Assembly (NCBI RefSeq): GCF_026768455.1
Contig: NZ_JAPPVQ010000006.1
Location: forward strand, 1-64,000
Length of the DNA: 64,000 nt
Source: Candidatus Nitrosotenuis cloacae
Lineage (GTDB): Archaea; Thermoproteota; Nitrososphaeria; Nitrososphaerales; Nitrosopumilaceae
Reading direction: 5' to 3'
Below, piece by piece: positions 21,712-48,616 of the stretch (positions are counted from its first letter, which is position 1; every line of letters starts with the position of its first letter). The notes below the pieces were generated by a model that saw nothing but the letters and a program-made list of their open reading frames with translations, was not told the origin of the DNA and did no database searches. The translations under genes and the position numbers were made by a program.

Positions 21712-22491
21712 ATGAACAATCAACGTGTTAAATTGAAAGTAATTTTTGTCGCCGGCACGGCGGGCGCAGGAAAATCTCTGCTTACATCAAAGATTCAGGA
21801 ATACTATACCAGAAACGGCGCGTTCACATCTGTGCTGAATCTGGACCCCGGAGTCATATCATTGCCATATACGCCGGACATCGACATCCGGGATCACGTC
21901 GACATTGTATCAATCATGGAGCAGTATGACCTAGGCCCAAACGGCGCACTCATGATGGCAAGCGACATGATCGCAGCAAAGATAGACGACATACAGCAGG
22001 AGGCCGACAGAGTAAACCCGGACTATCTCCTAGTCGACACGCCAGGACAGATAGAGCTTTTTGCGTACAGAGCAAGCGGACCATATTTTATCAACAACTT
22101 TGCATCCGAGCAAAAGTGCGGGCTGTTCCTGTATGACGGCGTGCTCACCACGACACCCGTCAACTTTGTGTCAATCGCACTTCTTGCAACATCAATCAAG
22201 CTCAGGCTGGGACTGCCTACCGTCAACGTGCTTACAAAGACCGACCTTATCGCAGACAAGATATCGGAGATACTCAGGTGGACCACAAACATCAAGACGC
22301 TTGAGGATGCAATAGCTGCCACCACTGACGGGGAGACGTACGTCCTCTTGACAAACATACTGCGAAGCCTAAACGTCGGCGGCTTTGCGCAGGGGTTGAT
22401 ACCAATCTCAAACTCGACTGGCGAGGGAATGGTAAACCTGGAGGCTGCCCTGAGCAGAATTCTTAACTTGGGAGAGGAGGTAGAGGATTAA
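21712..22491 (+). CDS. GPN-loop GTPase
   Basis: A 259-residue homodimeric GTPase of the GPN family. Eukaryotic relatives assist RNA polymerase assembly or nuclear import; the archaeal role is less clear. The P-loop GTAGAGKS is at residues 15-22, the defining Gly-Pro-Asn loop at LGPNGAL near 78, DTPGQIELF is the G3 motif and NVLTKTDLI the G4 (TKxD). The stop overlaps the start of thrB (TAATG), so the two genes are coupled. Confidence 0.93.
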   Translation: MNNQRVKLKVIFVAGTAGAGKSLLTSKIQEYYTRNGAFTSVLNLDPGVISLPYTPDIDIRDHVDIVSIMEQYDLGPNGALMMASDMIAAKIDDIQQEADRVNPDYLLVDTPGQIELFAYRASGPYFINNFASEQKCGLFLYDGVLTTTPVNFVSIALLATSIKLRLGLPTVNVLTKTDLIADKISEILRWTTNIKTLEDAIAATTDGETYVLLTNILRSLNVGGFAQGLIPISNSTGEGMVNLEAALSRILNLGEEVED

Positions 22492-23396
22492 TGTCCGTAA
22501 CAGCAAGGGCGCCATCATCTACTGCAAACCTCGGGCCGGGCTTTGACGTGTTCGGCCTGGCGCTTGACGCATTTTACGACACCGTAACCCTGTCTAGGAC
22601 AAAGTCTGGAATCAAGATAATATCGGACAGTTCCATCCCCCTGTCCCCCTCAAAGAACACCGCAGGACTCGTAGTCCAGTACATGAAAAAAAAGTTCTCC
22701 GTAAAATCCGGAGTCGAGATAAAGATCAAAAAGGGAGTGCCTGCCGGATACGGGATGGGCAGCAGTGCAGCATCCGCTGCGGCAACCGCAGTCGCATTTG
22801 ACAAGATGTTCAACCTAAGGCTCAGCCCAAACCAGCTGGTCGAATGCGCAGGAGTGGGCGAGCGCGCAAGCGCAGGCTCCATCCATTATGATAATGTGTC
22901 AGCTTCGGTGCTTGGCGGGTTTGTCATAGTGAGGACAAAGCCGCTTGACGTGATCAAGATCGTGCCACCGTCGGACCTCATGCTGTGTGTGGCAGTCCCA
23001 AAGCTAAAGACGCCGCCGAAAAAGACCGAGGTGTCGCGTGGCGTAATACCAAAGCAGATCAACCTGTCAGACTCTGTAACCAACCTATCAAATGCCGCAG
23101 CCATCGTGGCAGGATTCCTAAAGAAGGACTCGCGCCTCATTGGAACGTCGATCCAGGACATCATAGTAGAGCCGGCAAGACAGCACCTCATCCCCGGATT
23201 TTCCACAGTAAAGAAGAACGCGTTACGGGCAGGCGCGCTTGGGGTCACAATCAGCGGGGCGGGCCCGTCGGTGATCGCATTTGCGACAAAAAAGCACGAC
23301 ATGCAAAAGATAGCAAAGGCGATGAGCGCCGGATTCTCAGGTACCGGATGCGACGTCATAATATGCAGGCCGAGTGGCGGCGCAAAGATAGTCTGA
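22491..23396 (+). CDS. thrB: Homoserine kinase
   Basis: A GHMP-superfamily kinase that phosphorylates homoserine in threonine synthesis. Motifs: ARAPSSTANLGPGFDVFGLAL at the N terminus, the ATP-binding PAGYGMGSSAASAAA near residue 85 and VTISGAGPSVIAFA at the C terminus. Length of 301 residues is typical. It overlaps the GPN gene and is followed after 6 bp by queC, forming one tight transcription unit of unrelated functions. Confidence 0.93.
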   Translation: MSVTARAPSSTANLGPGFDVFGLALDAFYDTVTLSRTKSGIKIISDSSIPLSPSKNTAGLVVQYMKKKFSVKSGVEIKIKKGVPAGYGMGSSAASAAATAVAFDKMFNLRLSPNQLVECAGVGERASAGSIHYDNVSASVLGGFVIVRTKPLDVIKIVPPSDLMLCVAVPKLKTPPKKTEVSRGVIPKQINLSDSVTNLSNAAAIVAGFLKKDSRLIGTSIQDIIVEPARQHLIPGFSTVKKNALRAGALGVTISGAGPSVIAFATKKHDMQKIAKAMSAGFSGTGCDVIICRPSGGAKIV

Positions 23397-31793: not shown

Positions 31794-32231
31794 ATGGTTT
31801 TAGCTGTGAAAAAGATAATCCTCGGAATGGTCGCAGTGGCAGTAATTGGAATAGTGGCACTGATAGTGGCCCCCTCTGAGAAGGCCCCCAACACCGAGAT
31901 ATACCACGCAAGGCTTGCCGACCCCAAGCTGTACCAGGACGGGATATTCACGGACTCGTTCCACGTAAAGGGCGGCTCATACGAGTTTCGCTTTGTGCCA
32001 AACGGCGACAGCCCGCAGCTGTTGTCCATTACGCTGAACGGCCCGTCGTTTTCGTTTTCCGAGGACTATGAGCTGGAGGGCACCGCCCATGACACCGGAA
32101 TCTCCGAGTACTATACCTGGAAGTACCTTGGGGACAATACAGTCGAGGTTGCAGAGGAGCAGGAGTTGCAGATAACAATAAACCCTCACGGAAACACGAT
32201 GGGCCCAGTATCGGTATACTTGGTAGAATAA
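31794..32231 (+). CDS. Membrane-anchored extracytoplasmic protein, unknown function
   Basis: A 145-residue protein with one N-terminal transmembrane helix (ILGMVAVAVIGIVALIVA) and a beta-sandwich-like exterior domain (FHVKGGSYEFRFVPNGDSP, FSFSEDYELEGTAHDTGISEYYTWKYLGD, EQELQITINPHGN). The pattern resembles small extracellular jelly-roll domains such as those of emp24-like or proteinase-associated modules, but no family is certain. The structured RNA candidate begins directly after its stop codon. Confidence 0.7.
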   Translation: MVLAVKKIILGMVAVAVIGIVALIVAPSEKAPNTEIYHARLADPKLYQDGIFTDSFHVKGGSYEFRFVPNGDSPQLLSITLNGPSFSFSEDYELEGTAHDTGISEYYTWKYLGDNTVEVAEEQELQITINPHGNTMGPVSVYLVE

Positions 32232-32233
32232 AC

Positions 32234-32330
32234 GGCGTGGCCTCAAGCGCAGAACATGAGAGAACACCTCTCGCTCCCTAACGCCAATGCGTTCACGGGA
32301 CACAACCTAGTTCTACTGGGCCACGCGCCA
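32234..32330 (+). ncRNA. Candidate structured RNA, about 97 nt
   Basis: GCGTGGCC (32235-32242) pairs perfectly with GGCCACGC (32319-32326), closing a domain with two further hairpins: GAGAG/CTCTC (32258-32262 with 32268-32272) and an extended stem of AACGC/GCGTT with a CAAT loop, capped below by TCCC/GGGA (32275-32300). A weaker CCTAG/CTGGG hairpin competes with the closing stem. A T-run around 32403-32408 could terminate it. It matches no tRNA, 5S, SRP or RNase P pattern I know. A TATA-like GGTATACTT near 32213 lies at a suitable distance. The opposite strand would fold similarly, so orientation is inferred. Confidence 0.55.
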
Positions 32331-32455
32331 TTCAGTCGATAGGATTTATGTCCTTTCGCATCGTTTCATATAGGATTTTATGATATTTAAGATTTAGTCT
32401 GATTTTTTACACAAAAGATCCATCCATAGTGTAAGATTTTTGCACATATCCTCAA

Positions 32456-47638: not shown

Positions 47639-48541
47639 TTGCCAAGATGCGTTCTCACATTGTTGGACTTGTCGTTTAGAACCGGCGTGCTGTGCGCGTT
47701 CTTGGCAGCCGTACTGTTTGGCATGATATCGGTGGTGGCAAAGCCGACCGTTGCCGCAGTCAACCCCATTTTGCTTTCCGCTTTTGTCTATCTGATCGGC
47801 GCCGCAACCATGACTGGAATAGCAGGCGTCAGATTCCCACGAGTCGGCAAAAGGCACTACCTGCTGCTGGTTGCAAGCGGCATCTCAGGCGGTGTGATTG
47901 CACCGCTGCTGTACTTTTTTGGCCTGTCACAGACCACCGCATCGGACACGTCGGTAATATCAAACTCGGAGATCGTGTTTTCGATAATTCTTGCCATACT
48001 GTTCTTCAGGGAAAAGGTGAAGAGGCGCGGCTACCTTGCCATGCTTTTGGTCTTTGCGGGAATATTTCTTGTCGCAACGGATCTCAGGTTTTCAGGATCA
48101 GCCTTTGATCTCAACGTAGGCAACATGCTCATACTTGCATCGTCGGTATTTTGGGGAATTGACAACAACATAAGCAGGATGCTCACCAAAAGATTTGAAA
48201 ACTCGGCAAAGATTGCGCAGCTAAAATCCGCAATAGGCGGCGGAATCCTGTTTTGCATAGTGCTTGCCATGCAGATACCCATCATGGCAGACGCATCCCA
48301 GATCCCAAGCATCATTTTGCTTGGCGCAGGCGGCTTTGCAGCCTCGCTTTTCTTCTTTTTGAGCGCACTGAGGAGAATTGGGACCGTGAAGACGATTCTC
48401 ATCTTCTCGCTGTTCTCCCCGATAGGTCTTGCCGCATCTGCCGTATTTTTGCACGAGGAGATCGGAATGTACCAGATAGCTGCTACTGTGATGATGATTC
48501 TTGGAATCTATTTGGTTCTAAAGACCACAAAGCAAACATAG
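47639..48541 (+). CDS. EamA-family (DMT superfamily) transporter
   Basis: A 300-residue membrane protein with ten predicted helices arranged as two EamA repeats: FRTGVLCAFLAAVLFGMISVVAKP begins the first and LNVGNMLILASSVFWGIDNNISRML the second. The ending HEEIGMYQIAATVMMILGIYLVLK is typical. Such proteins export or import metabolites such as amino acids; the substrate is unknown. Several in-frame TTG codons near the start (47639, 47660, 47663, 47669) make the exact start uncertain. Its stop abuts the tRNA-Pro gene on the other strand. Confidence 0.85.
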   Translation: MPRCVLTLLDLSFRTGVLCAFLAAVLFGMISVVAKPTVAAVNPILLSAFVYLIGAATMTGIAGVRFPRVGKRHYLLLVASGISGGVIAPLLYFFGLSQTTASDTSVISNSEIVFSIILAILFFREKVKRRGYLAMLLVFAGIFLVATDLRFSGSAFDLNVGNMLILASSVFWGIDNNISRMLTKRFENSAKIAQLKSAIGGGILFCIVLAMQIPIMADASQIPSIILLGAGGFAASLFFFLSALRRIGTVKTILIFSLFSPIGLAASAVFLHEEIGMYQIAATVMMILGIYLVLKTTKQT

Positions 48542-48616
48542 TGGGACCGGTGGGATTTGAACCCACGACCTCTAGCACCCCAGGCTAGCATCATAGCCAA
48601 ACTAGACGACGGCCCC
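48542..48616 (-). tRNA. tRNA-Pro (GGG)
   Basis: A full cloverleaf on the minus strand: acceptor GGGGCCG/CGGTCCC with discriminator A, anticodon stem GCTAG/CTAGC-type around loop CTGGGGT with anticodon GGG, and T arm GTGGGTTCAAATCCCAC. No intron is visible and CCA is not encoded, consistent with the CCA-adding enzyme nearby. Confidence 0.95.

Follow-up and report, generated by a model that had tools for sequence, protein, structure and literature searches.

The comparative analysis indicates that the minus strand of the window (the whole stretch of 64,000 nucleotides of Candidatus Nitrosotenuis cloacae DNA analysed here) almost certainly contains a real RNA gene, in which a three-way-junction domain follows a short open reading frame at the 5′ end. 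As judged from its relatives, the gene stands alone, and it has a dedicated promoter and a covarying structure. The same comparisons indicate that the start codon, the stop codon and the distance from the stop to the first stem are under strong selection and that the encoded peptide is not conserved; the mini-ORF has very probably been selected for translation. The pattern suggests that the RNA works in part through its passage through a ribosome and not through peptide production. With start, stop and spacing conserved while the peptide drifts, comparative evidence alone parts "being translated" from "making a protein". This small structured RNA is carried by nearly all Nitrosopumilaceae, the marine and freshwater ammonia-oxidising archaea, which are among the most abundant ocean microbes and drive nitrification.

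Strand, extent and fold of the RNA

A DNA search of relatives identified a conserved block at positions 32234-32398, exceeding the span of 32234-32330 in which the earlier note had placed a multi-stem RNA on the plus strand. The stems do lie at those positions, and the fold of the stretch beats all shuffles on either strand (plus strand, -39.3 kcal/mol, z -3.7; minus strand, -47.5 kcal/mol, z -3.3; 0 of 200 shuffles as good in each case). The strand and the extent had to be revised. In an alignment of 40 homologues, changes in the stems preserve pairing solely if the minus strand is read. Further, a model-based alignment of 73 sequences has 93 G-U cells vs 11 A-C cells on the minus strand, where an A-C cell would be a G-U if the opposite strand were transcribed. 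Because of this asymmetry, together with an archaeal promoter upstream on the minus strand, the RNA is assigned to the minus strand and the plus-strand reading was ruled out. The RNA runs from 32361 to 32234, and the previous span therefore missed about 31 nt of its 5′ end as well as the promoter. Similarly, the T-run noted about 75 bases later on the plus strand (~32403) is located upstream of the minus-strand promoter and has no bearing on the gene; the actual U-rich tail occupies ~32222-32233 (-). The features of the gene body are:

32234-32361, minus strand: RNA gene, mini-ORF and three-way-junction domain, 128 nt (covariance model R1 match G000:C6:32234-32361:-, E 8.7e-32)
32318-32326, minus strand: closing stem P1, 5′ strand (helix 1 of the covariation analyses)
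32235-32243, minus strand: closing stem P1, 3′ strand (helix 1 of the covariation analyses)
32310-32316, minus strand: stem P2, 5′ strand, GUAGAAC (helix 2; 7 of 7 pairs covary in the 73-sequence set)
32249-32255, minus strand: stem P2, 3′ strand, GUUCUGC (helix 2)
32275-32297, minus strand: hairpin P3, variable in sequence (helix 3; 4 of 4 modelled pairs covary)
32258-32272, minus strand: hairpin P4, GAGAGG-UGU-UCUCUC, the most conserved block (helix 4)
32222-32233, minus strand: U-rich tail behind P1, the probable 3′ end, overlapping the end of the convergent membrane-protein gene

The closing stem P1 is followed by an asymmetric internal loop, stem P2 and a three-way junction that bears P3 and P4. 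Compensatory changes, the support that had been looked for from a new structured RNA, were found in all helices. In particular, 11 of 25 base pairs have changed on both sides among 38 close relatives, whose alignment was not fitted to the structure. Among 73 homologues, 18 of 25 base pairs covary and 96.1% of cells are paired (0 of 500 shuffles as good; slid controls, 35-61% paired, far below this value), in an alignment that was fitted to the structure and is hence biased towards it. Across homologues the P4 core is GAGG-NNN-UCUC, and a pattern search with the P4 and P2 3′-strand motif (P4+P2′) recovers the family by itself. Behind P1, the frequency of T across 164 homologues is 0.43-0.85 per position over 12 nt, and the transcript probably has its 3′ end at this tail.

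In the window copy (32258-32272, minus strand) and in its homologues, P4 nearly always presents GAGG, the Shine-Dalgarno core, paired to UCUC. A second ORF behind this Shine-Dalgarno-like GAGG was considered and dropped, as its AUG is limited to Nitrosotenuis; a kink-turn in P3 was likewise dropped, as the flanking pairs are Watson-Crick.

The location, 3 nt from the end of a convergent gene, and a local fold that works on either strand would also fit a DNA-level feature, such as a terminator working in both directions, or an inverted repeat that arose by chance between the convergent genes. Such an origin is extremely improbable in view of the conservation across the family, the covariation, the G-U strand asymmetry, the gene's own promoter and conserved ORF, and the presence of paralogues elsewhere in the genome.

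As the earlier note had supposed, the RNA fits no known family: the window copy has no match in Rfam 15, whether to tRNA, 5S, SRP, RNase P or snoRNA-like RNAs or to riboswitches, and five of six divergent homologues are also without a match. The match of one homologue (L126) to Xist_exon1 scores 17.5 bits, where the gathering score is 50, and is attributed to chance. The genome's RNase P RNA gene (RF00373, G000:C14:77936-78212) and SRP RNA gene (RF01857, G000:C17:113057-113370) lie elsewhere; RNase P, SRP and tRNA identities were all rejected. The sole Rfam match at the gathering score in the window is a tRNA-Pro (GGG) at 48541-48616 (-).

Promoter and mini-ORF

The 5′ end of the gene and its promoter contain the following features:

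32384-32396, minus strand: TATA box TTAAATA (32384-32390) and BRE-like A-rich upstream bases (from spacing to the AUG and conservation on the tree)
32369-32376, minus strand: promoter-proximal element TTCCTATA (ATCCTATA in the window copy), conserved in the upstream profile
32332-32361, minus strand: putatively leaderless mini-ORF, MRKDINPID and a TGA stop
32337-32358, minus strand: hairpin P0 inside the mini-ORF (from folding; mean z -2.3 over 19 divergent representatives)

The positions of the TATA box barely change on the tree. In 154 of 166 distinct copies, the distance from its end to the A of the AUG is 22 nt exactly, within the spacing of about 22-27 nt that marks a leaderless transcript and leaves no room for a leader. 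In archaea, TATA-box spacing of this size sets the start of transcription at the AUG, plus or minus a base or two. From this fixed spacing, the RNA is probably leaderless, with transcription starting at the AUG or at most 1-2 bases from it.

The TTCCTATA element sits between the TATA box and the AUG. In the Nitrosopumilus maritimus genome, the pattern TTAAATAN{5,9}TTCCTATA has just two sites, one at each of the two RNA genes that score best. Elsewhere in the window's genome, the sole other exact site for TTAAATAN{5,9}TTCCTATA (L271; G000:C15, 718-770) precedes a gene for a small zinc-ribbon-like protein (MTCKGICSRYKAQKPVG...), which is perhaps co-regulated with the RNA.

The region had first been described as encoding no protein, a description that overlooks the nine-codon ORF at its 5′ end, the start and stop of which almost all relatives retain. 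The RNA opens with the 30 nt ATG CGA AAG GAC ATA AAT CCT ATC GAC TGA. In the first 40 homologues, the AUG is in the same position in 40 of 40 and the stop is at codon 10. Of 166 distinct RNAs, all have the AUG, and 165 reach an in-frame stop after 8-10 codons (159 of them after exactly 9), with one copy stopping after 12; TAA is used in 100, TAG in 50 and TGA in 16, and no other triplet is a stop in 100% of copies. Since the covariance model spans the start and stop bases, ascertainment was assessed separately on loci found by the P4+P2′ motif alone: 115 of 119 evaluable loci have such an ORF, against a rate of 11% at random positions, and the four exceptions comprise the 12-codon copy and three bacterial matches evidently due to chance.

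On a tree built from the remaining RNA, the three positions of the AUG and the T of the stop have zero changes. The second and third stop positions have changed at least 11 and at least 19 times, always between A and G and never giving TGG, and each of the four bases behind the stop has changed 32-53 times; as parsimony counts on a quick tree, these figures are lower bounds. On the first tree, the whole stop codon has a minimum of 33 changes. Overall, there are at least 30 stop-codon changes, every one to another stop.

The eight codons between behave differently from the start and stop: changes in codons 2-9 number 128, 167 and 147 at codon positions 1, 2 and 3, and with no third-position bias an amino-acid constraint is not seen, although P0 pairing overlies these codons and could hide weak selection on the peptide. 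This count bears on the idea that the 8-10 aa peptide is the product, with the structure serving as a terminator or as a 3′ UTR that lends stability. In keeping with this idea, virtually no copy lacks the ORF, and peptides are alike within sub-groups (27 distinct RNAs encode MPKDIIPID). Against it, there is little in common among MRKDVNPNK, MSLVVKSGD, MQKDVKSTA, MAEKSAHMT and similarly divergent peptides, and paralogues within one genome encode different peptides. A micropeptide product is, on balance, improbable. Dual-function small RNAs have been proposed in archaea (PMC12482152), and the RNA resembles those known elsewhere, e.g. SgrS/SgrT, in being a structured small RNA that carries a conserved short ORF in or close to its 5′ part; in those RNAs, however, the peptide is the second function, and here selection at the peptide level is not seen.

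The spacing between the mini-ORF and the junction domain is narrowly set. In 69 of 73 copies, 3-5 nt separate the stop from P1, and this gap is kept in 8-codon copies too; in two copies with 10 codons and one with 12, the stop abuts or overlaps P1. Nearly all of the ORFs have the potential for a hairpin between their start and stop codons, as in the second N. maritimus copy (AUG-UCGUUAG-UUACAAAAU-CUAACGA-AUAA). The P0 energies are modest, from -1.2 to -9 kcal/mol, and P0 is near chance in four or five of the 19 divergent representatives.

Genomic setting and proposed mode of action

At the main locus, the order SDR, RNA, membrane protein of 143-145 aa and TFB is kept across the family, with the RNA directed at the end of the membrane-protein gene and 2-15 nt away from it. 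This neighbourhood is retained across genera alongside the compensatory changes, as the earlier note's test on relatives with the same gene order had sought. Other copies of the RNA adjoin unrelated genes; downstream are found, depending on the copy, an unnamed membrane protein, TFB, a putative CorA-like transporter or a putative PurP-like enzyme. In the window, the membrane-protein gene (31794-32231, plus strand), flanked by TFB and the RNA, encodes a predicted membrane-anchored protein of 145 aa with no Pfam match. Most genera of the family have a homologue of comparable length at this position; genus g9 lacks the gene, and its RNA directly faces TFB.

The nearest downstream gene is convergent at 61 of 73 loci and co-directional at 10. 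Cis regulation is disfavoured by this orientation and, since the identity of the downstream gene also differs between copies, the RNA most likely acts in trans. A cis attenuator, in which translation of the mini-ORF would open P1 (the terminator) and transcription would read into the next gene, finds the mini-ORF, stem and U-rich tail in the correct order and a co-directional downstream gene in ten copies; a co-directional gene conserved with the element, which such a mechanism calls for, is not seen, however, and this explanation is very unlikely. Leader-peptide attenuators, including those with leaderless short ORFs, share the short ORF, stem and U-rich tail with this RNA, which differs from them in having no dependent downstream gene in most loci.

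We infer transcription, translation, the gating step and any targets from sequence, and the mechanism proposed here takes the following form. A dedicated promoter would start the transcript at, or 1-2 bases from, the AUG, and the transcript would terminate at the U-rich tail behind P1. The ribosome would load straight onto the 5′ end by leaderless initiation, read about nine codons and halt 3-5 nt before P1. Archaea make use of leaderless AUGs, and a ribosome whose A site holds a stop codon shields approximately the next 10-12 nt; given this footprint and the position of the stop, a terminating ribosome would cover most of the P1 5′ strand. With P0 closed, the AUG would be poorly accessible and the junction domain folded; with a ribosome terminating at the stop and covering P1, the domain would be opened or the RNA kept on the ribosome. 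This ribosome gate would set the RNA's activity, stability or ribosome association, and the RNA would sense or exploit ribosome availability.

The proposal of a trans-acting RNA whose folding, stability or ribosome association is controlled by ribosomes entering and terminating on a dummy ORF has about even odds of being true. The claim of a new RNA class, a ribosome-gated or ribosome-parked regulatory RNA in which translation of a dummy ORF (start, short run, stop), rather than the resulting peptide, is the working part, is made more tentatively and falls somewhat short of even. If true, the class would be nearly universal in one of the most abundant archaeal groups.

The main rival holds that the 5′ AUG and early stop serve only to bar ribosomes from the structured domain or to guard the 5′ end against 5′-to-3′ decay, and that the junction domain works by binding protein or RNA, with no ribosome-driven switch. 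A stop just ahead of the structure would prevent unwinding, a conserved start and stop with an unconserved peptide would be expected, and no extra assumption is needed. To keep ribosomes away, however, the absence of any AUG would suffice, and zero AUG losses in 166 RNAs suggest that the start codon is put to positive use; nor does this rival account for P0 or for the narrow gap between the stop and P1. This shielding role is rather unlikely, and the micropeptide, cis-attenuator and DNA-feature explanations fit worse. For the ribosome-gated reading, cultured N. maritimus, with two well-matched copies at 22398-22527 and 690171-690297 on the plus strand of SCM1, makes a direct test possible, and the covariance model and promoter motif allow an immediate check of existing RNA-seq.

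Comparison with known RNAs and distribution

The nearest functional idea, by analogy, is that of the ribosome-associated RNAs of Haloferax, where rancRNA_s194 and tRNA fragments are known and H. volcanii sRNAs are ribosome-occupied without coding potential (PMC8938821, PMC12482152). These are likewise small archaeal RNAs that engage ribosomes with no evident protein product. They were found by experiment, whereas ribosome association is here proposed from sequence comparison, and they are not described as one family with a fixed leaderless start-stop frame and a covarying junction domain. The RNA also resembles tmRNA as a structured RNA with a frame of about 10 codons closing in a conserved stop; it differs in having its frame at the extreme 5′ end and neither a tRNA-like domain nor a resume frame. 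Identification as a tmRNA was rejected: neither ARAGORN nor Rfam recognises one, and the acceptor domain and tag frame are absent. Tan1 and other archaeal ncRNAs of unknown function come from marine metatranscriptomes (PMC5069720); Tan1 is also a lineage-specific structured archaeal RNA but, by its description, is 229 nt long and belongs to group II Euryarchaeota. No family-wide regulatory RNA of Nitrosopumilaceae was found in the literature or the RNA library searched. The RNA is not described in the literature searched, which lay mostly outside subscription journals; an earlier mention, for example in early marine small-RNA surveys, is possible.

A DNA search found the stretch in 17 of 17 genomes of the genus Nitrosotenuis, with weaker copies in other genera. 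The window's own genome has a paralogue that is 78% identical (G000:C13:65522-65651); a third weak match there (C13:99834) aligns in fragments only and was not counted. The broader covariance model R2 matches 202 of about 221 Nitrosopumilaceae genomes, N. maritimus included (G120, with three R2 matches vs two with R1). Most genomes carry 1-4 copies and one carries 6; about 19 genomes of the family have no match, several but not all of which are incomplete. Across the 400 genomes of the class that were searched, R2 gave zero matches outside Nitrosopumilaceae, in a large-sample search with stricter filters that distant relatives may escape. Relatives outside the family suggested by weak R1 matches (E 0.04-0.09) were discarded, as these are gone with R2 at E<=0.05. 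Bacterial motif matches (L176, L186 and L200) are attributed to chance, and L264 was set aside as it has no covariance-model match. A mobile or viral element was rejected, as the P4+P2′ motif has zero matches in viral contigs and the main locus stays in place.

Two MAGs titled Nitrososphaeraceae (L177 and L153) bear full Nitrosopumilaceae-type RNAs. The record title of L177 is probably wrong, because its coordinates equal those of G211, a genome of the window's own family. Further, two contigs of one Nitrosarchaeum genome, BD3 (L096 and L097; G237:C3 and C6), have identical RNA copies and the same start of the flanking genes, and this pair is probably an assembly duplication.
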